The translations under genes and the position numbers were made by a program. The notes under the pieces are model-generated. The model worked only from the letters and a program-made list of their open reading frames with translations, was not told where the DNA came from and did not search any database. From contig CANJCO010000039.1 in assembly GCA_947473045.1 (NCBI GenBank), forward strand, positions 1 to 44,770: DNA of 44,770 bases. The letters are read 5' to 3'. This DNA comes from Myxococcales bacterium (GTDB lineage: Bacteria > Myxococcota_A > Polyangia > Polyangiales > Polyangiaceae). The stretch's first letter is position 1, and each line of letters opens with the position of its first letter. This document shows, one piece after another, positions 2 through 37,546 of the stretch.

Positions 2-149
2 CTAGCAGGGTGTTGAAAAACACCCTGATAGTAATTGGCGAAGCCAATTGCGTGGGGTGGGGACCCCGAAAAACCGCGTTTTTCGGGGCGGGGAGGTGCA
101 TACCTCCCCGAGATGAAAGGCTAGCAGGCCGTTCTTCAACGGCCTGCTA
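2..149. repeat. Array of six tandem hairpins with inverted terminal units
   Basis: Six near-contiguous perfect or near-perfect hairpins fill this stretch. Their stems are: 6-14 with 19-27 (9 bp, loop GAAA, extended by 2-4 with 29-31); 33-39 with 43-49 (7 bp, loop GAA); 54-58 with 63-67 (5 bp); 64-73 with 79-88 (10 bp); 90-97 with 102-109 (8 bp); and 122-133 with 138-149 (12 bp, loop CTTC). Stems three and four share bases 64-67 and so are alternatives. The first hairpin read on plus and the last read on minus align at 23 of 30 positions, and two stem pairs differ in a compensatory way. No protein is encoded. It may be a small non-autonomous mobile repeat, a structured RNA, or an elaborate 3' end for the neighbouring lipoprotein gene, whose stop codon lies inside the last hairpin. 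Confidence 0.75.
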
Positions 150-665
150 AGGCACCTGCACGGGGACCCGATCCTGTACGACGACGCTGCGGTCGGGGTA
201 GGTGGTCGCGACCACGCTCAGCTCATCGGAAAGCTGCGCCCCTGCATCGGTCGGCACCGGACTGTACCCGTAGACCACCCGAACTCCCGTGAGCACCACC
301 ACACCACCCGCGCAGGAGGTCACTTGCTGGTCGGTTGAAGCGATCACGTTTCCGTCCGTGTCGCTAAGCCGGAAGGTGAGCAGCCAATTTTCGCTCGTCG
401 GTGCGTAGAGCAGCGCCGATCCCCAAACGTGCGTTCCGCCTTGCGAACCGAAAACCTTCGTGAGCGCGTCGTTCGCCTTGAGCTCGGCGAAGCTGCCGGT
501 CGACGACGTCGTTCCCAGATGAATGGCGGCGACGCTCGGGTCGGCCGAATGCGAAAACGAAGCCCCGCTCGCGCAGCGGGTCTGAAGCGCGATTGCGGGC
601 GGATCGGAGCACGAGCCTGCGCCGAACGCGAAGCAGCACAGCGACGCGACCATGAGCTTGTTCAC
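147..665 (-). CDS. Small secreted lipoprotein, unknown function
   Basis: This 172-residue protein begins with a short basic N-terminus and a hydrophobic stretch ending in GAGSC at residues 15-19, a lipobox-like site that predicts lipid anchoring at Cys19. The rest is a beta-rich, Ser/Thr/Val-rich exported domain with three further cysteines; I recognise no family. The start used is GTG at 665; ATG at 653 (residue 5) is an equal alternative, and neither has a clear ribosome-binding site. The TAG stop lies inside the last stem of the hairpin array, so transcription could end in that array. The lipoprotein assignment is fairly safe; the function is unknown. Confidence 0.7.
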   Translation of the reverse strand: MNKLMVASLCCFAFGAGSCSDPPAIALQTRCASGASFSHSADPSVAAIHLGTTSSTGSFAELKANDALTKVFGSQGGTHVWGSALLYAPTSENWLLTFRLSDTDGNVIASTDQQVTSCAGGVVVLTGVRVVYGYSPVPTDAGAQLSDELSVVATTYPDRSVVVQDRVPVQVP

Positions 666-2551: not shown

Positions 2552-3664
2552 ATGATGCATGTATTTCACACGAGGATGGGCGTGTGCGGGGTCGACTACC
2601 TTCGAGAGGCACTCACGAGCGTCAAGCTCCTCGATTCCGACGCGAGCCCCGGCGATTCAAAGCCACCAAAGGCCGTGATCGCAGCCGCGCGTGCGATTGA
2701 GCGCCATCTCGGCGGCAGTCCGCAGGACCTCACCGGTCTGGCGATCGACGTCGCCGCGCTCCCGCCGTTTCATCGCACAGTCTACGAGGCCGCGCGGCGC
2801 ATCGCTTCAGGCACGACCACGACGTACGGCGAGCTCGCTGCCGCGGTCGGTTCGCCGCGAGCCTCACGGGCCGTCGGACGCGCCATGGCGACCAACCCGC
2901 TGCTCATCGTCGTGCCGTGTCACCGCGTGCTCGCGAGCGGCGGCGCCCTCGGCGGATTTTCGGCTCCGGGAGGCGCAGCGACCAAGCGAAAGCTGCTCGC
3001 GCTCGAGGGGGCATGGCCGCTCGTCAAGAGCGCTCCCCCACCCTTCGATGCAGCGCGCGCGGTGCGCCATTTGAGCGCACAAGACGATGCGCTGGGCAAA
3101 CACATCGAGCGCGTCGGCCCCTTGCGTCTGCGCGTGGTGCCCGCGCCTTCGCTCTTCTTCGCGCTCGGCCGCGCCATCATCTTCCAGCAGCTCTCGGGCA
3201 AAGCGGCCGCGACGATTCACGCGCGCTATCGCCTGTTGTTCGACGACGGCGTTCCCGAGCCCGAAGCCCACGCGCGGCTGTCCGATGAGCAACTGCGCGG
3301 CGTGGGCGTATCGGCCAGCAAGGCGCGATCGCTGCTCGATCTGGCGGACAAATCGCTGTCGGGGAGCCTGCCTTCGCTGGGCGCCCTCGGGGCGATGCGC
3401 GATGACGAGATCATTGACGCGCTGACCGCTGTGCGGGGGATCGGCGCGTGGACGGTGCAGATGCTGCTGATGTTCAGCCTCGGGCGCGCTGACGTGTTGC
3501 CGGCCGACGATTACGGAGTTCGGAAGGGATTTCAGAGGCTGCATCACGCGCGCGAAATGCCGACGCCCGCCGAGCTCACGCGCCACGGCGAGCGATGGGC
3601 TCCGTACCGGACGGTCGCGAGCTGGTATTTGTGGCGAGTCCCCTCCGACAACGAACCGGGCTGA
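2552..3664 (+). CDS. Fused O6-alkylguanine-DNA alkyltransferase / 3-methyladenine DNA glycosylase II (Ogt-AlkA)
   Basis: The 370-residue protein joins two repair enzymes. Residues 1-155 are an MGMT/Ogt domain: a TTTTYGELA helix-turn-helix segment (88-96), then IVVPCHRVL with acceptor Cys123, which takes alkyl groups from O6-alkylguanine. Residues 165-370 are an AlkA-type HhH-GPD glycosylase: helix-hairpin-helix AVRGIGAWTVQ (293-303) and the catalytic-Asp segment LPADDYGVRKG (Asp320), which excises alkylated purines. Both active sites look intact. The start may be ATG 2552 or 2555; a later ATG at 2576 would cut the first beta-strand of the Ogt domain. The fusion puts direct reversal and base excision of alkylation damage in one chain, with no Ada-like Cys-rich sensor domain. 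Confidence 0.92.
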   Translation: MMHVFHTRMGVCGVDYLREALTSVKLLDSDASPGDSKPPKAVIAAARAIERHLGGSPQDLTGLAIDVAALPPFHRTVYEAARRIASGTTTTYGELAAAVGSPRASRAVGRAMATNPLLIVVPCHRVLASGGALGGFSAPGGAATKRKLLALEGAWPLVKSAPPPFDAARAVRHLSAQDDALGKHIERVGPLRLRVVPAPSLFFALGRAIIFQQLSGKAAATIHARYRLLFDDGVPEPEAHARLSDEQLRGVGVSASKARSLLDLADKSLSGSLPSLGALGAMRDDEIIDALTAVRGIGAWTVQMLLMFSLGRADVLPADDYGVRKGFQRLHHAREMPTPAELTRHGERWAPYRTVASWYLWRVPSDNEPG

Positions 3665-8145: not shown

Positions 8146-8217
8146 GGGCGCATAACTCAGCGGTAGAGTGCCACCTTCACACGGTGGAAGTCGGGGGTTC
8201 GAATCCCTCTGCGCCCA
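8146..8217 (+). tRNA. tRNA-Val (anticodon CAC)
   Basis: A full cloverleaf is visible in 72 nt. The acceptor pairs 8146-8152 with 8210-8216. The anticodon stem CCACC/GGTGG carries loop TTCACAC, giving anticodon CAC. The T-arm has GGGGG/CCCTC-type pairing around TTCGAAT. The discriminator at 8217 is A, normal for tRNA-Val. CCA is not encoded. It stands alone, converging with the minus-strand gene that ends at 8253. Confidence 0.95.
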
Positions 8218-27572: not shown

Positions 27573-30500
27573 ATGCCCGAGACATCGATAAGTCAACCAG
27601 GCTCTACCGAGTGGTTACGAGCGGAGGTTGCGCGAACCCCCGACCGTGCTCGTCAGGCACGGCTACTTTGCGAACTTGGTGAGCTCGCTGAACGAGCCGG
27701 CGACGAGCCAACCGCGGCGCGCGATTACTTGGCGGCGTTCAACGCTGACGCTTCCTTTCTCGAGCCGATCGAGGGGTTGGTCCGCCTGCTGGAGCGCCGC
27801 CAGTCGCTCAAGAATCTCGGGCGGGTCGTCGATTCATTGGCTCGCGCTTCCTCGACGTCCGCCGAGCGGGCGCGCGCGCTCATCCTTCAGGCGACGTACG
27901 CGGAAGACGTCTCTCAGGACGCGCAGCGTGCGCAACAGCTCCTGATCGACGCGACCACGGAAAACGTTGACGGAAGTGCCGATGCAGAGCTCAGTCGCGA
28001 AGCAAGTCCGGCGTGGCTGTCGCTCGAGCTGCTGGCGGCGAAGCGCGGCGACCATGGTTCGCGGGCTGACGCGCTGGCGCAGCGAGCAAAACGCGCTGGG
28101 GATCCCTCATGGCGAGCGTTGCTCATCGTCGACGTGGCGCGATTGGTCGCGAGCTCCGGCGACATCGAGCGAGCCCTCGACCTCCTCACGGAGGCGCGAG
28201 GGGGCGACCCAGGGGTCACCTTCGCTGCAGCTGTCGCTACCGAAGCGATTGCCGCTTCTGAGCCAGGATTGCCGGGCTCGGCGGAAGCCTTGGCTCGCGC
28301 ATCGCTCCGCGCGGAGGCGATTGACCTCCAAGTCGCTCTAGCGACCGCTCCGGTCGCGGACGCTGCGCGAGACTGTGCCGTGCCGTTTCCGGAGTGGGCC
28401 CGAGAGCCGGCGCGCATCGTTGACGCTCAGCTGCGAGCGGCTCAACTTCGAGAAACGCTAGGAGATCTCGCTGCGGCGGCGGCAACGCTCGACCGCGCCA
28501 TTGCTTGGGCGGAGTCCCTCGCCCCGGCCGCGAAGCCCGCGGTTATCGAGCTGCTCGATGCGAGGATGCGCATCGCCGCTCGCGAGGGAGATATAGCGTC
28601 CGCCGCAAGCTTCGCAGCGCAGCTCGTGGGAGCTGAGCCGGACGGCGCAAGGGCGGCATCTCAATACGTCTGCATTGCAGAGTCGGCGGCTGTTGCCGGC
28701 GACGAGGCGCGTGAAAACGAAGCGCTGAGTTCCGCGCTTCGCCTCGACCCGACCTGCGCTCCGGCGCTCGCGATGAAACTCGACGCGTTGTGGCGGGCTC
28801 GCGATTTTGCGGGGCTCGCAGATTGCCTCGTGATGATCGCCGAGTCGGTCGACGCCAAAGACGCCCGTGCGCGTTACTTCGTGCTCGCCGCCACGATTCG
28901 CGCGACAAGGTCCGATGACGCAGCAGGCGCGCGCGCCGCGCTCCGAGGCGCAGCAGCCTGCGACCTCGCCCCCCTCGAACTCGCAAGAATCGAGCGGGTG
29001 TTCGCCGCACACCTTGGTGACGGCGCGTGGCTCGAAGAGGCGTCGGCACGGCTGCTTTCGGGTGGAGCGCCCAAGGACGAAGCGGCCACGCTTTGGTTTG
29101 ATGCGCTCCGCGCGCGCCTCGCCCGTGCCGATGCCGCGGGCGCAAATGAGGCGCTGACGAAACTTGCCGAAATTGACAGCGCTTCGTGGCTCGGCAACGC
29201 GCTGAGCGCGCTGCTCCCGAGGTTCGTCGGCCAGCCGTTCGACGTCGTCGCTCTGCGGCGCTCCGCTGCGTTCGCTGCACTCGCGACGCAAACGTCCGAC
29301 TCTCCCGTCGCCGCAGCTTGGGAGCTCGCAGCGGCCGCCGCTCACGCCCCTTTCCCCCGCGGACCTGGCGATGGCGCGGTTGACGCGCTCCTCGGAAATT
29401 TACGAAGCAGAGATCGCGAGGACTTGCTGGTCGGGCTGACCAGCCTGGAGGCCGCGCGCGCGTCGGGCGACCTGCACGGAGCGGGGCTCATCGCCCAGGA
29501 GCTCGCCGACGCGACCTCCGACGTTCAGCTAGCTGCTGCGCTGCGCATCGAAGCCGGCCTCACGCTTTGGTTGGAGGGCGACCGTCGTGGGGCGCTTGCC
29601 CTTTTCGAGAGTGCCGCCGAAACCGCGCCGGAGGCGACGAACTCGCTGCTAGCTTGGGCAACGCGCTCCGTCGACGGCGACTCGGTTGACGGCCGGCGAC
29701 GAGCCTGCGTGCTCGCCGCGGCGGACGGGATCCAGACTTCCGCTTGGGCCCTCGAGCGATTCGCCCTTGAAACCCAAGAGGGAAACGCCGGCGACGCCGA
29801 AGCCGCGCTCGTCCAGGCCGAAGGTGCCGCGGCTCCGGCGATCGCGTGCGCGGCGGCGCTGGCGCGGTTGATCTGGCCAGACGGCGCGGCCAACGCCGAA
29901 GCCGTCGCTCAGTCGCTGGAGACGCTCGGCGCGGCGGGCGCGGGTCCGCTCGCCGCAGCCGAAGCGCACCGAATGTCTCTCGGCTCCGACCCGGACGCGA
30001 TCAACGAAGCGGCCAGAGCATGGTCGCTGGCAGATGCAGGCGGCGCCGCCGCGCTCGAGTGGCTCGCCGCGACGCTCGGACTCCCTGAGCGCCCCGAACT
30101 GCGCATTGCGGCGCTCCGTGCGCTTGCCCAACGCGTTGACGGCGACGCCGCCGCCGCGCTGCAAGCAAACGCAGCCGTCGCGGCTGTGCTTGCGACTGAA
30201 GCTGGGCCGGCGAATATCGATTTTGTCGCCTCAGATTCCGCACCGGCGCGGTTGGCAAACCTCGAACTCGCGCCTGTCGGAAGCCTGCCTGCACGTCGAG
30301 CGTTCGCGCTGTGCCGCATCGGCGATGCGCTGGGTGAGCAGGCTCGCCTGCAGGGCCTCGTTCAGGGAGGTTGGGCGCAGCTCGCCTCTGGCGATGTCGG
30401 GGGAGCCCTCGAGACCTTCGGTGAAGTCTGTGCCACGACTTCGAGTGAGCTCGGCGCATGGGAAGGTCTCAGAGCCTCCGCTGAGTGCGCGGATGATCCA

Positions 30501-32354
30501 TCCCTACGCGCCCTCGCCGCTGCGGAGCTCGGAGCGAGATGTTCCAACGCCGCCCGCGGAGCCGCGTTCTGGGAAGAAGCCGGGGACACACATGCGCGCG
30601 CAGGAGACGCCGCAGCGGCAGAGTTCGCGTTCGCGGCTTCGTTCGAGCGCGACCCGTCGCGGGCGACGGCGTTCGACAAGCTCTTTCGCCGCGTTCGCGA
30701 CCAGAAGCAAAGCGACAGGGTCCTCGACCTCATCGCGAGGCGCCTCGCACACACAGACGACGTCGAGGAAATGGCGAAGCTGTTTTGGGAGCAGGCTCGC
30801 GCGTTCCGCGAAAAAGGAGACAACGACTCCGCGATGGAGGCGCTGGAAAACGTGGACATGATCGAGCCGGATCACGTCGGCGCCCTCGCCCTGAGCGGGG
30901 AGATTTCTATCCGGCGCGGCAACTATGGCGACGCTGCTGAGAAGTTGAGTCGCCTCGCCTCCCTCGAAACGGCGCCGGCAAAAAATCGTCTCACCGCGGG
31001 CGTTGCCGCCGCTGACTTGTTTGAAAACAAGCTCATGCTGCCGCCGCGCGCGCTCGCGGTACTGCTCGGCCTTCACCGCGCAGGCCTGTCGACTTTGCCC
31101 GTGCGAGAGCGACTCGCAAAGATCGCGGCGCGAAGCGAATCGTGGGCGGAAGCGGCGTCGATCTTGGACGCCCTGATGGCCGAACGCTCCGACACGGCCG
31201 GTCGGATCGATGCCGCTCGCCTGCTCATGGCCATCGCCCGGGATCGTCTGGGCGACACGCAGCGCGCCGCTCCAGCCGCCGCATTCATTCTCCAAAACAT
31301 GCCCGAGGATGGCGACGCGATCGACCTTATTTTGGAGGCGAATCTCCCCGCCCGAGCGTCGTTGCTCCAAAGCGCACGAGAGGCACTTTGCGCGTCGCTG
31401 GCAGCCTCCCCGACTTCACCCGACGCCGCAGAGCGCCTCTCGCGCGTGGCACGAGCGCTTGGAGAGCCCATGCTCGAGGACGTCGCGACGTCTCTGGCGC
31501 GCGTTCTGGCCGGCCCGAACCTGGCGCTCGATCAGGCGCTGTCGCGAACCGCTGGGCGTCGACCGCGCGGCGTGCCTCCGGCTCGCGTTTCCGCGACGGC
31601 TCTGGGCGCCCTGCTCGCCCCCGGTGACGCGGGGCCGCTCGCCCAACTCTTCGAGGCGCTCGGCCCAACGCTGGCCGAAGCGTTCGGGCCGACGCTCGAG
31701 TCGCTCGGTGTGAGCAAGCGTGACCGCGTCGACGCAAAAAGCGGCTTGGCACTGCGCGGAGAGCTTGCGGGCTGGGCAGCCGCGTTCGGCATGAGTGAGA
31801 TCGACGTCTATGTTGGAGGGCGCGATCCCGCTGGGATTGCTGCGGTTGCCACCGTGCCGCCTACGCTCGTCGTTGGCTCTGCGCTGGCCTTGCCGTTCTC
31901 TGCCGAGGTGCGGGCAAAACTCGCCTCAGAATTGCTTGGCCTTGTGCGAGGCACAACATTGATCGCGGCGCGTGACGCTTCGTTTGCCGAGTCGATCGTC
32001 GCGGTTTGTTGCAAGCTTTCCAAGGTGCCGTTCCCTGCGCAAAAAGTTGCGCCGCCAGCCGATGTCGAGCGGCTGCTGACGAAAACGATGTCGCGAAAGA
32101 CGCGAGCTGCCATCGCGGGCGCCTGTTCGGCGATTGCGACAACCGGACCGGACGTTGGCGCGTGGACGGAGCAGGTGGCCCTGTCGCGCCTGCGCTGTGC
32201 CGCGCTGTTCACCGGTGAAGTCGCCGGCGTCGTCGAAGCGTTCCAAATCCAAAAAGCCGCAGAAGGCCGATCGCTGCAGACGCTCTGTCGCTTTGTCCTG
32301 TCCGCGGAATATCTCGACACTCGGCGCGCGCTCGGGCTGGGAGGGGCGCAATGA
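27573..32354 (+). CDS. Giant TPR-type protein A (1593 residues)
   Basis: This very long Ala-rich cytosolic-looking protein lacks a signal peptide or membrane helix. It is made almost entirely of helical, TPR-like repeats: for example an AEERAGDEPTAARDYLAAF-type unit near residue 38 and units around 1075-1160. The last about 220 residues form a distinct module, from LAGWAAAFGMSEIDVY to the end, related to that of protein B. The sequence resembles large TPR proteins of myxobacteria that I cannot tie to a function. Its TGA overlaps the ATG of gene B (ATGA at 32351), so the two are made together. It could be a scaffold for a large complex. Start ATG 27573 lacks a clear ribosome-binding site. Confidence 0.85.
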   Translation: MPETSISQPGSTEWLRAEVARTPDRARQARLLCELGELAERAGDEPTAARDYLAAFNADASFLEPIEGLVRLLERRQSLKNLGRVVDSLARASSTSAERARALILQATYAEDVSQDAQRAQQLLIDATTENVDGSADAELSREASPAWLSLELLAAKRGDHGSRADALAQRAKRAGDPSWRALLIVDVARLVASSGDIERALDLLTEARGGDPGVTFAAAVATEAIAASEPGLPGSAEALARASLRAEAIDLQVALATAPVADAARDCAVPFPEWAREPARIVDAQLRAAQLRETLGDLAAAAATLDRAIAWAESLAPAAKPAVIELLDARMRIAAREGDIASAASFAAQLVGAEPDGARAASQYVCIAESAAVAGDEARENEALSSALRLDPTCAPALAMKLDALWRARDFAGLADCLVMIAESVDAKDARARYFVLAATIRATRSDDAAGARAALRGAAACDLAPLELARIERVFAAHLGDGAWLEEASARLLSGGAPKDEAATLWFDALRARLARADAAGANEALTKLAEIDSASWLGNALSALLPRFVGQPFDVVALRRSAAFAALATQTSDSPVAAAWELAAAAAHAPFPRGPGDGAVDALLGNLRSRDREDLLVGLTSLEAARASGDLHGAGLIAQELADATSDVQLAAALRIEAGLTLWLEGDRRGALALFESAAETAPEATNSLLAWATRSVDGDSVDGRRRACVLAAADGIQTSAWALERFALETQEGNAGDAEAALVQAEGAAAPAIACAAALARLIWPDGAANAEAVAQSLETLGAAGAGPLAAAEAHRMSLGSDPDAINEAARAWSLADAGGAAALEWLAATLGLPERPELRIAALRALAQRVDGDAAAALQANAAVAAVLATEAGPANIDFVASDSAPARLANLELAPVGSLPARRAFALCRIGDALGEQARLQGLVQGGWAQLASGDVGGALETFGEVCATTSSELGAWEGLRASAECADDPSLRALAAAELGARCSNAARGAAFWEEAGDTHARAGDAAAAEFAFAASFERDPSRATAFDKLFRRVRDQKQSDRVLDLIARRLAHTDDVEEMAKLFWEQARAFREKGDNDSAMEALENVDMIEPDHVGALALSGEISIRRGNYGDAAEKLSRLASLETAPAKNRLTAGVAAADLFENKLMLPPRALAVLLGLHRAGLSTLPVRERLAKIAARSESWAEAASILDALMAERSDTAGRIDAARLLMAIARDRLGDTQRAAPAAAFILQNMPEDGDAIDLILEANLPARASLLQSAREALCASLAASPTSPDAAERLSRVARALGEPMLEDVATSLARVLAGPNLALDQALSRTAGRRPRGVPPARVSATALGALLAPGDAGPLAQLFEALGPTLAEAFGPTLESLGVSKRDRVDAKSGLALRGELAGWAAAFGMSEIDVYVGGRDPAGIAAVATVPPTLVVGSALALPFSAEVRAKLASELLGLVRGTTLIAARDASFAESIVAVCCKLSKVPFPAQKVAPPADVERLLTKTMSRKTRAAIAGACSAIATTGPDVGAWTEQVALSRLRCAALFTGEVAGVVEAFQIQKAAEGRSLQTLCRFVLSAEYLDTRRALGLGGAQ

Positions 32355-35300
32355 GTCAGGCGGACGGCAACAACAAGGGAGGGTCCGAGTTCGACTGGGG
32401 ACAGCTCCTTGCCGGATGGGATTCAGAGCCCCTCGACGATGACTTTGTCGACGACGCCACCCCCTCCTCAAGGGCGGCGCCCGCGGTCGAGCTCGCCGAC
32501 CTCGATGAGCCCGACGAGTTCGCTGATGCGACTCGCATGGCAAGCGCATTGCTCTCTGTCGCCGACGCGCCGGCCGAAGACGAATTTATCGACGTTTCGA
32601 GCGAAGATCCGAAGCTGTTTTTCGGCGGGGACACCCCACAGGCCACCGAGACAGTCGAACCTCCCCGTCTGTTGTCCGGTCTTACGCTACCGCCACCACT
32701 GCCCGTCGAAGCGCTGCTCGCTACGTTCGCAGCCGACGGAGCTTTGGAGCCTTCGGTTTCGCCCGAAACCGCCTCAGCCCCAGCGGCTGCGCCGGTCGAG
32801 AGCGCCGCCGCCGTCGCCTTCGCCGAGCTTGAGGCCTCGGATGAACGCCCGATCGCAGAGGCGCCGCTCGCGATCGAAAAGTCGCCGCCGGCTGCCGCCG
32901 TCGCAGCTTCTGTGCCGCTACCGGTCGAAGTCGCTTCGGGCCCTGGACGCGTGACGCCCGCTGCTGCGCCGAGCGTCGCTGCGATCGGGGCCGAAGGGCT
33001 CGCCGCGACCGCTGCATGGCTCGCCGAAGAGGCAGCTGCGAAGACCGACGCCGGGGCGCGCGCGCGCGGGCTACTGGTTGCCGCCGAAATATTTTCGATT
33101 GTCGGTGAGCCCTCGCGCGCAGGCGCCCTTTGCGCTCAGGCACTCGAAACCGCGCCAGATGATCCGCTTGCCATTCGCCAAGCTCGCGTCGGGCTCTCAA
33201 CCGCCGATCTCGTTGCTTCGCTCGAAGCAGAGTCCGCGGGTGGCGTTAGCCCTGCCGCGAAGCTTCACGCAGCGCTCTTCGCCGCCGAGATTCATCGGAC
33301 CGTTGGCGACAGTTCGGCAGCCGAGGCGTGCATCGACCAGGCCGCGCGCATCGACGCTTCCGATGCCCGCGTGATTGCGACGCGAGCCGCCGAGGCACTT
33401 GCCCGCGGCGACACCTCGAGCCCGTCGCTTCGCGTCAGCGATCCATTGGTCGCAGAGGTTCTCAGGCGCGCCGTCGGCGACGCGCTGCGCGGTCGCGGAG
33501 GAGCGAATTCCGAGTCCCTGGGCGAACCGAACGCGGTCGATATCCTTCGCCGGGCGCGGGCCGCCCTCGAGAAAGCCGACGTCGTCGCTGCGGCTGAACG
33601 CATCGCCGAGTTGCGCGAGCTGGCGCCTCTTGCGCAGGCGTCGACGTGGCTCGCCGCGTCGTTGGCCGCCTCACGAAAAGCGTCGCGCTCGAAATCCGCG
33701 AGTTTGTTTCAAGAGCTCGCGCGTGGAGGAGACGTCGCAGCGGGCGCGTCGCTTGCCGCCCGTGCGCTCGAGCTCGGCGACAGCGCGATGCTCAACGATG
33801 CGATCGGCGCGAAATCGGGGTTGCGCGAGATCGATCAGATCTCACTGGCCGCGCTTTCCGGCGGCGATCTGCGTCCGCTGGCCTCTGCGGCGGCTGCCCT
33901 CGCAACGGACGAAGATACCTCCGCCTTCGCGCGGGCAACGTCGACGCTGCTCTTCGACGAGCAATTGCGCGCGAACGAGGGAGAGGCAGGCGGCGAAGCG
34001 CTGTCGACGTACGCTCAAATTGGCGCCGGCTCGGCACGCAGCCGAAGCGCGTCGCGCGTTGCGCGTTTGCTTGCGGGCGGGAAGTCGGAAGAGTCGGCCC
34101 TTCTGGCCGCGATCGGTGCGATGCGCGAGACCGATCCTGCTGCGGCGACCACGCTCGCGCTTGCCGTAGCGGCCCAGGCTGAGCGCTCCGACATTCTCAT
34201 CGCTACGCTGCTCGACGAGGGCGCCGCGCTTGGGCAACGATCGATGAGCGCGCTTGCCGCTGGCGTCATTGCCGAAGTGGCCGGGCTCTCTGCTCGGGCG
34301 TCAGCGGCGTTCGACGCCGCTGCGGCCGCGGATCCGACGAATCGATTGGCGCTGCAGGCTCGCGCGCCGACAGGCGGCCAAATCGATTCGGTCTCGGCCC
34401 TGCGCGCGCTCGCTGCCGACGAACACGAACCGCGATCGGCCGCGCTCGCGCTGCTGATGCTGATCGCCCATGAATCGCTTCTCGATGCACCCGAATCGCT
34501 GGACACCTTCGTTCGGCTGCACACGCTTCTTCCGGAGATGCCCGTCGGCGCCTTTTTTGGAGAATCGCTTGGGCGACGCCTGGGCGATGCCGCCGAAGTG
34601 ACCCGCTGGATCGAAGAGCGCGCCGCGATGAGTTCCGACCCACTCGAGCGCGCGGTCGAGGTTCTCCGGCACGCAACCGCGCTCGGCGAGCGCGATGCGA
34701 GCCGGCGCAGTGAGCGCGTCGCCCAGGCAAGCCATGCTCGCCCCGATGACGTAGCGCTGCGCGACTGGGTGGAGCGCACCGCGCCTGAGGGGCTCACGGA
34801 AAGCGGGCACTGGCGCGAGGAACGCGCGTCCGCGTCGACCGGAAAAGCGCGAGCATCGTGGCTGCTCCGCGCTGCACTCGCCTTCGAACGCGAAGGCGAC
34901 ACCGGAAGCATGTTGAGGACGGCCCGCGAAGCCTGCGCGACCGACGCGACCGACGCTCTGGCGCAGGTTGTGTTGGAGCGCGCCGAGCTCGCGTCCGGCG
35001 AACCTGCTCGGGTAGCCGACGCGTTGCTGGCGCGCGGACGTGAGGCCGCGAATCCGGTGACGCGGCGCGAGGCCTTCGAGCGCCTTGCGACGCTCGACGG
35101 CGAGGTTCGCAAGGATCCGGCGAGCGCGCTGCTGTGGCACCGCACAATCCTCGAAGAGTCTCCGCTACATTTGCCTTCGCTCCGTCACATCGAGCACGTC
35201 CTGGTGGGCGAAGGCCGCAGCGACGAGCTGGGCCCCGTCGCAGCCTCAATTGCACGCGCCCTCGCGGGCACCAATTCTGGCGAAAGCGCAGCGCACGTGT

Positions 35301-37546
35301 TCTTCGCGAGCCGAGTCCTCACGCGAAGCGGAGAGTGGTCGCAGACGTCAGAGCTCGCGGCCGAGGCAGCTGCAGAGCGGGTCCCGACGCTTTGGGCGCT
35401 CCGCCTGGCGAACGCGCACGCTCGCGCCGCCGGCGACGCCGAGGCCATGCTGGCGACGACGAGGGCGCTCCTCGAGCGGGCGACGGGCTCGACGGATCAG
35501 GCGACGCTGTGCGTGCGGGCCGCGGAGGTCGCTCGGGCGCGCGGCGAAGTCGGCCTTGCGCTGGAGCTCCTTGAACGCGCGGCGCTCCTGGAAGACGGCG
35601 ACCTCGTGACGTGGTCGCGGCTCGCGGCGGCGCGCTCCCGCGCCGGAAACACGGGAGGGGCAGCCGAGGCGCACGAGAGGCTCGCGCAGGGCAGCCAAGT
35701 AGACGCCCACCGCAAAGCGGCGTGGTTTGATGCGGCCTTGTGCTGGCTCGACGTGGAGCGAACGTCCCCTGAACGTGCCTCGCGCGAAGAACGCGCCCGC
35801 TTGGCGCTCGAGCACGCCGCGAACATCGACGTCGGCTACAAGGACGTCTTCATTCGCCTATCGGCCCTGTACGCGCGCAGCGATGCGAACGCGGCCCTCG
35901 CATCGCTCATCGAACGCCGAATTCCGAGCGTCATCGACCCCGACGAGCGCGTAGCTCTCGAGATCGAGCGAGGCCGTGCGCTCCTCGCGTGCGGAGACGA
36001 TAGCGGCGGCCGGGATGCGTACGAATCTGCGCTCGCGATCCAGCCTGACAACGTAGATGCGTTGTCGGCGCTCGCCGACCTTGCATGCGCGCGGGCCGAC
36101 TGGCCGGCAGCCGAAAAAGCGTGGGTTAGCCTTGCTCGACTGAGCCCGTCGGGTGACGATCAGCAGCGAATCTACGGGCAGCTCGGCGAGCTGTACTTCA
36201 CCAGGCTCGAAAATTTTGAGCGCGCGGCGCTGGCATTTCTCGAGGTGCTGAAACACGCCCCGAGCGATGTTCCGGCGCGGCAGCACCTTGTCGACGTGTA
36301 TAAAAAACAGGGCGACGGGGAGCGTGCCCTGAACCTGCAACAGCAACTCGTCGACGAGAGTTCCGACCAAGAGACGAAGAAGCGGCGGCTCGTCGAACTC
36401 GCGAGCGTTCTCGAAATCGCAGCGCCCGAGACGCGCAAGGCCGAGCAGACCCTTGAGGCTGCGCGGCGCGAATTCCCGACCGATATCGGGATCTTGCGAG
36501 CGCTCGGCGAATATCATCTGCGCCACGGTCAAGACGCTGCGGCCAAGTTGCTCTTCGACCGTGCCTCGGCCGATGCGTTGCGGGCGTTCGCAGCCGGGCG
36601 CTTCAACCCTGCCCTGTTTGACGCGCTCTCCACCGTTCACGAACTGCGCGGAAACGCAGGCGCGGCGCGCGCGGTGCACGCTGCGCGCGCAGCCTTTGTT
36701 GGGCGCCCGTCTGCGATCGGCGGAGCCGACGCGCGGGCGCTCGGAGTCGCGTTCGACAGCGCGCTGGCCCCGGAAGCGCTGCTCCCGGCGATGCGGAGCT
36801 TGCTCGATCGAACCGGCGCGGCGCTCGACGCAGCTGCGCCGTTCGATGCGGCGGAAGCGGGAGTCCGCCGTGCCGACTCTGACGCATCGGTGACCCGCCT
36901 CGCCCAGCAATTTGCAGACGCAGCCGGCCTGGGCGAAGTCATCGTTCTGCTCGCTCCTGCCCTCGGGTTCGCCGCGGTCCCGGTTTCGTCGGATCCCCCC
37001 GCGCTCGCCGTTGGCGACGCTTTGCTCTCCGATGCGCCGGAAGCGACACTTGTGTGGGCGGTAGCGCGAGCGGTAAAATTGCTGCAGCTTCGCGGCGCCG
37101 TTTTCGCGCGCGTCGCCTCTGTCGAAGCAGCATCGATCGTCGGCGGCTGGCTCGCGGCGTTTCAACCTGACTGGGTTGCGCCTGGGGTGAATGCTCAAAC
37201 GGTGTCCGCTGCGAAGCAGAAAATCAGCGCGGCGCTTTCGTCAACGACAGATCCACAGCTCGCCGTGCTGGCGCGCGAAACGGCCGCAGCGCTCGGCGCG
37301 CAGCTCGCCGCCCTCCCCAACAACGTCGTTGCGTGGGCGAATCGGGCAGCGCTCCTCGCAACCGGCGATCTTGGCGCAGCGCTCGACGGGATCGCCGCGG
37401 CGAGCGGCCGGGCAGGCGTTACGGCTGCGCCGCACAACGAACAGGAGCGCGCGACGTGGATCTCGCGAACCCCCGAAGCGAAAGACCTCGTCGCATTCGG
37501 TGTTGGTGCCGCCTACGCAGACGCCCGGGCGCGCCTCGGCCTCTAA
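32351..37546 (+). CDS. Giant TPR-type protein B (1731 residues)
   Basis: Residues 1-150 are acidic and probably unstructured, containing an EFDWGQLLAGW motif near 13-23 and DDDFVDD, followed by Pro/Ala linker. From about 200 to 1500 the chain is helical TPR-like repeats; clear units lie near 1190-1330, such as ERGRALLACGDDSGGRDAYE and LGELYFTRLENFERAALAF. The C-terminal module (about 1470-1731) resembles that of protein A. GGAGGGG before ATG 32351 and overlap with gene A show coupling. No catalytic motif is seen. The acidic N-terminus with its W-containing motif could be a docking site; that is inference. Function unknown. Confidence 0.85.
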   Translation: MSQADGNNKGGSEFDWGQLLAGWDSEPLDDDFVDDATPSSRAAPAVELADLDEPDEFADATRMASALLSVADAPAEDEFIDVSSEDPKLFFGGDTPQATETVEPPRLLSGLTLPPPLPVEALLATFAADGALEPSVSPETASAPAAAPVESAAAVAFAELEASDERPIAEAPLAIEKSPPAAAVAASVPLPVEVASGPGRVTPAAAPSVAAIGAEGLAATAAWLAEEAAAKTDAGARARGLLVAAEIFSIVGEPSRAGALCAQALETAPDDPLAIRQARVGLSTADLVASLEAESAGGVSPAAKLHAALFAAEIHRTVGDSSAAEACIDQAARIDASDARVIATRAAEALARGDTSSPSLRVSDPLVAEVLRRAVGDALRGRGGANSESLGEPNAVDILRRARAALEKADVVAAAERIAELRELAPLAQASTWLAASLAASRKASRSKSASLFQELARGGDVAAGASLAARALELGDSAMLNDAIGAKSGLREIDQISLAALSGGDLRPLASAAAALATDEDTSAFARATSTLLFDEQLRANEGEAGGEALSTYAQIGAGSARSRSASRVARLLAGGKSEESALLAAIGAMRETDPAAATTLALAVAAQAERSDILIATLLDEGAALGQRSMSALAAGVIAEVAGLSARASAAFDAAAAADPTNRLALQARAPTGGQIDSVSALRALAADEHEPRSAALALLMLIAHESLLDAPESLDTFVRLHTLLPEMPVGAFFGESLGRRLGDAAEVTRWIEERAAMSSDPLERAVEVLRHATALGERDASRRSERVAQASHARPDDVALRDWVERTAPEGLTESGHWREERASASTGKARASWLLRAALAFEREGDTGSMLRTAREACATDATDALAQVVLERAELASGEPARVADALLARGREAANPVTRREAFERLATLDGEVRKDPASALLWHRTILEESPLHLPSLRHIEHVLVGEGRSDELGPVAASIARALAGTNSGESAAHVFFASRVLTRSGEWSQTSELAAEAAAERVPTLWALRLANAHARAAGDAEAMLATTRALLERATGSTDQATLCVRAAEVARARGEVGLALELLERAALLEDGDLVTWSRLAAARSRAGNTGGAAEAHERLAQGSQVDAHRKAAWFDAALCWLDVERTSPERASREERARLALEHAANIDVGYKDVFIRLSALYARSDANAALASLIERRIPSVIDPDERVALEIERGRALLACGDDSGGRDAYESALAIQPDNVDALSALADLACARADWPAAEKAWVSLARLSPSGDDQQRIYGQLGELYFTRLENFERAALAFLEVLKHAPSDVPARQHLVDVYKKQGDGERALNLQQQLVDESSDQETKKRRLVELASVLEIAAPETRKAEQTLEAARREFPTDIGILRALGEYHLRHGQDAAAKLLFDRASADALRAFAAGRFNPALFDALSTVHELRGNAGAARAVHAARAAFVGRPSAIGGADARALGVAFDSALAPEALLPAMRSLLDRTGAALDAAAPFDAAEAGVRRADSDASVTRLAQQFADAAGLGEVIVLLAPALGFAAVPVSSDPPALAVGDALLSDAPEATLVWAVARAVKLLQLRGAVFARVASVEAASIVGGWLAAFQPDWVAPGVNAQTVSAAKQKISAALSSTTDPQLAVLARETAAALGAQLAALPNNVVAWANRAALLATGDLGAALDGIAAASGRAGVTAAPHNEQERATWISRTPEAKDLVAFGVGAAYADARARLGL

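Follow-up and report, generated by a model that had tools for sequence, protein, structure and literature searches.

The window analysed here, a stretch of 44,770 nucleotides from a Myxococcales bacterium, opens with a series of hairpins of which the first and the last look like inverted copies of each other. Is this the end structure of a mobile element, and has its fold been kept by selection? A direct comparison of both ends bore out what the initial annotation had described. Between the plus strand at 2-31, CTAGCAGGGTGTTGAAAAACACCCTGATAG, and the minus strand at 150-121, TTAGCAGGCCGTTGAAGAACGGCCTGCTAG, 23 of 30 positions are identical. The seven mismatches comprise two stem pairs that are swapped (9/22 and 10/21, four positions), one position in the loop (17) and two at the stem base (1 and 27). 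As single-strand DNA, the first hairpin folds at -11.0 kcal/mol (z = -7.8) and the second, on the minus strand, at -14.8 kcal/mol (z = -9.2). The fold of the whole of 1-150 has a z of -9.1 as plus RNA, -9.5 as minus RNA and -14.0 as plus DNA, and none of 200 shuffles was as good in any of the three. Since both ends match and fold, the element does end in terminal inverted repeats that are themselves hairpins.

The explanation that we favour, and consider likely as a whole, is a MITE-like element, moved in trans probably by an IS5-type enzyme, with a core that would work as a folded strand. That the element transposes is well supported.

The repeat and its target duplications

The window corresponds to contig C39 in a 5.15-Mb draft genome (138 contigs, 99.98% complete). 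Allowing up to three mismatches, a 42-mer from the right end had 137 matches in this genome and a 45-mer from the left end had 121, against 0 for the reversed control. The commonest hairpin form was shared identically by 54 of the 81 left and 56 of the 83 right hairpins that were read, and the remainder were older variants. The terminal inverted repeats were conserved among these copies. The repeat seems to break the assembly, because 12 of the 20 regions extracted end at a contig end beside a copy. It has the features of a MITE: it is short, lacks a transposase gene, has terminal inverted repeats and a target duplication, and occurs in high copy number. The parts of the element are listed in Table 1, together with other features of the window.

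Table 1. Parts of the repeat and other features of the window, with positions, strand and basis or remarks
Feature	Position	Strand	Basis or remarks
Whole element	6-146		141 bp between target copies; without transposase gene
Left 4-bp target-duplication copy, CTAG	2-5	.	Agreement of both ends across copies in the same genome
Hairpin 1; outer arm and loop (6-21, CAGGGTGTTGAAAAAC) = left terminal inverted repeat	6-27	+	Folds
Hairpin 2, AATTGGC GAA GCCAATT and flanking pairs	33-49	+	Plus-RNA and plus-DNA folds
Conserved G-rich strand, GCGTGGGGTGGGGA	50-63	+	Conserved alignment columns
Hairpin 3, compensatory change across genera	64-88	+	29 distinct arm pairs
Hairpin 4, GGGGAGGT GCAT ACCTCCCC within a C-G pair	89-110	+	Compensatory change across genera; 45 sequences
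Linker, AGATGAAAGG	111-120	+	GATGA-like in many relatives
Hairpin 6: inner CTAG (121-124) and stem-loop (125-146)	121-150	+	Folds
Right terminal inverted repeat = outer arm and loop of hairpin 6	131-146	-	CAGGCCGTTGAAGAAC
Right target-duplication copy, CTAA	147-150		Window's own copy
tRNA genes	811-883; 8146-8217	+	Rfam
ORF with SprT-like, DUF2786 and DUF7168 domains	1308-2543	+
ORF joining an O6-methylguanine-DNA methyltransferase DNA-binding domain and an HhH-GPD glycosylase domain	2552-3664	+	One ORF
Two overlapping very large ORFs	27573-37546	+	1593 and 1731 aa; matches limited to weak TPR-repeat

Pieces of the same sequence type were also encountered in other genomes. A repeat piece that is 99% identical opens a short contig of another genus (L010, positions 1-117 of the 4,965-bp contig G006:C52), and is either a recent transfer or contamination. 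Lone single hairpins, GCAGGGTGTTTTTCAACACCCTGC and TTAGCAGGCCGTTGAAAAACGGCCTGCTA, were found near gene ends in genome G007 (L014 and L022).

Copies are laid out as YTAR, CAGG...CCTG, YTAR. Both ends could be read in 46 of the 90 core matches in the window's genome, and the left and right 4-mers agreed at positions 1 to 4 in 36, 39, 39 and 33 of these, respectively. The first bases (left/right) were C/C in 28 copies, T/T in 8, T/C in 5, C/T in 2 and C/G in 3. The C/G cases are misreads of the regular expression for the right end, which misplaces at least three right 4-mers (GCGG, GAAG, GAGG) that were scored as disagreements. The C/T table gave a significant coupling of the first base between the two ends (p = 0.0003). 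Disagreements were frequent, and agreement was incomplete in older copies; the window's own copy has CTAG on the left and CTAA on the right, alike at three of the four positions. At one locus (L073), a younger copy is nested in hairpin 6 of an older copy, with CTGG on both sides and the rest of the older hairpin following. Seen against the paralogous site, this nesting is a 4-bp duplication. The target duplications that the initial annotation had advised looking for were thus present as coupled 4-mers, as this nested CTGG pair, and as a CTAA duplication flanking an insertion sequence (IS) described below.

In ten of the 46 copies the left end reads YTRT and so does not conform to YTAR (L028, L030, L046, L048, L061, L066, L069, L071, L081 and L083). 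In eight of these ten, the T complements the inner-arm base and completes the palindrome, which hints at quasi-palindrome correction. The matching arms in general might then stem from template-switch correction of quasi-palindromes during replication instead of from structural selection. We consider this improbable, because that inner base is in any case the most frequent one, older copies still have uncorrected arms, and the retention of pairing in hairpins 3 and 4 through many genera and kinds of pair would be left unexplained.

Compensatory change and the spread of the core

The initial annotation had further claimed that pairing was kept while the sequence drifted. For the left outer hairpin in the window's genome this did not hold. 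Its inner arm ends in ACACCCTG in 79 of 81 left hairpins, while the outer arm is variable in older copies (CAGGG[TC]G[TCG]T[CG]GA and similar). Older copies of hairpin 1 therefore change one stem arm alone, the very case that had been named as speaking against the claim, and compensated drift is not shown for this hairpin. Many of the outer-arm changes are from T to C, giving C.A on the plus strand and G.U on the minus strand; a weaker claim, that the pairing of hairpin 1 is kept on the minus strand, is possible. These changes run opposite to the wobble bias of hairpins 3 and 4, which have 19 G.T cells versus 10 A.C cells on the plus strand. Among the 83 right hairpins, 15 show CAGGCCGCTGCTTCAACGGCCTG, a second common form in which one pair is likewise unmatched on the plus strand.

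The claim stood for the inner hairpins 3 and 4. From 100 core sequences, 15 were removed by hand (insertions, truncations, poor fit), and removal of near-duplicates at 93% identity left 51. Alignment A2 had 50 rows (without L017), and alignment A3 had 49 rows, 45 of them distinct (without L017 and L229). In the 45 sequences, 97.5% of the 360 cells of hairpin 4 were paired, with double changes in six of its eight pairs, against 55.6-68.4% paired in slides of one to three columns. The covariation score of hairpin 4 was 0.287 versus 0.116 after shuffling, and was reached by 0 of 500 shuffles. Hairpin 3 was counted by a script anchored on loop motifs, because MAFFT misregisters its two forms in A2 and A3. 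Among its 29 distinct arm pairs (49 rows, without L017 and L229), 92% of cells were paired compared to 76% in shuffles (0 of 1000), and 52 cells were doubly changed compared to 15.5 (0 of 1000). Double changes occurred in 8 of its 10 pairs versus 4.8 in shuffles, of which 7 of 1000 reached this number. Slides of hairpin 3 were 33-61% paired. The shuffles retain the relatedness of the sequences; the arguments against chance come from the slides and from how varied the pairs are.

By comparison of sequences, these counts support selection on the structure of hairpins 3 and 4 across genera. RNAalifold gave a weak covariation term for a 20-sequence alignment (-0.86 of -21.87 kcal/mol), with 5 of 17 pairs double-changed. 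The sequence of hairpin 2 differs in relatives, and this hairpin was left out of the covariation counts. In the plus-RNA fold, the GGGGT of the G-rich strand has an alternative pairing with ACCCC of hairpin 3. A G-quadruplex formed by four G runs was rejected, as some relatives (L025, L186) have interruptions in these runs. None of the families in Rfam 15 reached its cut-off for the element, the best being CssrA at 19.1 bits versus 93.

How widely is the core distributed? A covariance model of the core, built from 20 inner-part sequences from six genomes, matched at least 29 of 183 genomes of the order and at least 18 of 83 genera, in a scan that scored at most 23 candidates per genome, with rough E-values and with the six model genomes matching by construction. 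An exact core pattern, built from known members, hit 69 loci in a collection of 84,980 species genomes, from which the window's own record may be absent. The titles of these 69 loci name Polyangiaceae, Labilithrix, Myxococcales or 'Proteobacteria bacterium ZC4RG46'. Most carriers have the same family label as the window's genome, which on that ground is probably Polyangiaceae.

The outer ends differ by genus. They read CAGGCTGCTGAAAAAC, TGA followed by AGGTCTGTCAAGAATTG, CTAAATSRGCGAGC, CTAGAGCGACAAACGG, TGA followed by GAGAGACTGTG, and others. Another genome of the same genus (G001) carries other ends, and near-identical copies are confined to one species. Core copies without recognisable outer repeats also occur (L013, L020, L023, L025). 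Eight right ends from different genera, including the window's, each fold better than all 200 mononucleotide shuffles. Among seven left ends, four beat all 200 mononucleotide shuffles (those of the window's genome, G005, G163 and G056), and for the left ends of G022, G137 and G023, 61, 8 and 102 of the 200 shuffles, respectively, fold as well. The core might be a structured module in its own right, probably a 3'-end RNA, which has come to be joined to various transposon ends within the order and which settles at stop codons with one orientation prevailing; the fold would then be selected and the vehicle exchanged. This is a tentative reading, to which we give less credence than to a MITE-like element moved in trans.

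The candidate mobiliser

Transposition in trans calls for an enzyme that accepts the ends of the repeat, and a transposase gene with matching ends was sought in the genome, as the initial annotation had advised. A search with PF01609 found two genes in the window's genome (L119 and L120). The first encodes a protein of 366 aa that matches the IS5-family model NF033581 (transpos_IS5_4) with 273 bits against a cut-off of 140, and also matches Pfam DUF772 and DDE_Tnp_1. It lies in an IS of 1,339 bp whose inward-read ends, CAGGACGTTGAGAAAC and CAGGGTGTTGAAATTC, each adjoin CTAA. These ends match the left outer arm of the repeat at 14 of 16 positions and the right outer arm at 13 of 16. According to an excerpt of PMC10359306, the duplication motif of IS5 in E. 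coli is likewise YTAR. Judging from the matching ends and the duplications, an IS5-family enzyme of the L119 type probably moves the repeat in trans. Against this particular partnership counts that the IS matches the repeat over about 16 bases per end only. The IS is single-copy in this genome, and its ends do not fold as hairpins; the transposase thus leaves unexplained why the ends of the repeat do.

The second gene (L120, G000:C54, 1-1600) belongs to an IS701-family element with a 412-aa transposase (385 bits to NF033540). It was discarded as a partner: the sequence at its ends is CACTACTTTGACA, and the element is itself inserted in CTAG at the left end of a repeat copy, with CTAG on both sides. 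Likewise rejected as autonomous partner was L016 in genome G011. Its positions 998-1527 hold a hairpin element that is distantly related to the repeat and has outer hairpins of the same type, and that is split by the remnant of a separate IS, whose ends differ; a 52-aa fragment of this remnant is 71% identical to the L119 transposase. The fragment was the sole match when the L119 protein was searched in 15 genomes, and the different ends of the IS around this nearest relative also count against L119 as partner. Of 30 PF01609 loci in seven genomes, none had a flanking inverted pair of local ends (at most four mismatches), and scattered, chance-like end matches were seen near PF01609 loci in G056, G150 and G137.

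The initial annotation had also raised single-strand transposition. In a REPIN/BIME-like or IS200/IS605-like system, the hairpin ends would be bound single-stranded by a Y1 transposase (TnpA/RAYT), and the target would not be duplicated. The hairpin at each end and their inverted order suit this mechanism, as does the left end in genome G022, which always follows TGA in one orientation, like a fixed 5' target motif. However, PF01797 gave 0 candidates for a Y1 transposase in the window's 99.98%-complete genome, with positives in 5 of 14 control genomes including E. coli, in a search that left out the carriers G023, G056, G115, G132, G137, G150 and G163. This absence disfavours single-strand transposition in the window's genome. 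The coupled 4-mers, the nested CTGG pair and the IS5-type element with the same end sequence speak against it as well, which makes a Y1 mechanism very unlikely; duplications of 4 bp and a candidate partner of DDE type are the better fit.

For the MITE-like element, we propose that an IS5-family (DDE) transposase would treat the outer arms of the terminal hairpins like any other terminal inverted repeats, inserting the element into YTAR with a 4-bp duplication. YTAR holds a stop codon on both strands (TAR and YTA), and hence the duplication keeps the genes on either side closed. A stop kept for both neighbours may make insertions tolerable, and the survivors would lie outside genes, often exactly at stops. 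The core would act as a folded strand, most likely as RNA at the 3' end of transcripts, and would travel on whichever end sequences the local transposase accepts.

Gene context and comparison with known systems

Genes for the context counts were called by a codon-score caller trained on the same loci. None of the 24 copies with longer flanks in the window's genome lies within a called gene, and 13 of them adjoin the stop of a called gene: 6 do so with their left end and 9 with their right, 2 copies being counted under both. In the window, the stop codon of a 172-aa minus-strand ORF (147-665, no Pfam match) falls in 147-149, within the target copy. The 46 YTAR sites of the window are divided over genes (22), intergenic regions (17) and stops (7). 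From this distribution, the placement at stop codons in this genome may largely follow from the target and from loss of harmful insertions.

Relatives showed a stronger association. In ACE_MYX3 (G022), 24 of 31 left ends coincide with the TGA that closes, in frame, a co-oriented upstream gene; of the others, four are not the TGA of the upstream gene and three have no called upstream gene. By comparison, 53 of 187 non-genic TGAG sites are at stops (p = 3e-7), and the TGAG motif alone therefore does not explain this placement. Among 80 loci of relatives, of which 8 are from ACE_MYX3 and 7 lack a called neighbour on either side, the upstream gene was co-oriented in 53 and opposed in 11 of the 64 loci with a called upstream gene. 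Between codirectional genes, 20 copies in relatives run with the pair and 4 against it (p = 0.0015); in ACE_MYX3 alone, the numbers are 10 and 3 (p = 0.09). The window's genome has no co-orientation bias, with 3 copies running with such pairs versus 7 against.

Stop-codon abutment and co-orientation in relatives, together with the covarying core, are what a host 3'-end element would also lead one to expect, i.e., a terminator or mRNA-stabilising structure that gained copies through gene conversion or recombination and was retained because of what it does. Such an origin accounts poorly for the target duplications and the nested insertion, for near-identical copies in one species only while G001 of the same genus has other ends, and for the lack of co-orientation in the window's genome; moreover, no T tract was seen after the end hairpins in the copies inspected. 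We regard it as unlikely and retain the MITE-like element with a folded core.

A search of the open-licence literature, made by means other than the element's own sequence, found no description of the element. Its covarying helices resemble those of Rfam structured RNAs, but it scores below every family cut-off. REPIN/BIME repeats with RAYT consist of two inverted hairpins bounding a short insert, and the element shares this arrangement. It differs from them in its target duplication and its long conserved core, and in that its genome yielded no Y1 transposase. With the IS5 family it shares the end sequence and the YTAR-type 4-bp duplication. Unlike IS5-family elements it is without a DDE transposase gene and can be no more than a derivative or passenger, and the IS5-family IS ends in its own genome do not fold, in contrast to its own.

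A mobile repeat that is a mere transposase substrate would not be expected to covary internally. If the folded middle does persist while the ends differ by genus, with copies often placed exactly at stop codons, structured 3' ends can be carried through genomes as cargo, and this family offers a natural series for testing the role of the fold. The closest known systems are bacterial MITEs such as the ERIC, Correia and RUP elements. The enterobacterial RU-1, RU-2 and RU-3 repeats are also described as such in an excerpt of PMC2759123. Like these, the element is short, multicopy and intergenic, with terminal inverted repeats, a target duplication and, here by inference, mobilisation in trans. 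Unlike them, each of its ends is a hairpin, its core covaries across genera, and its ends vary by genus.
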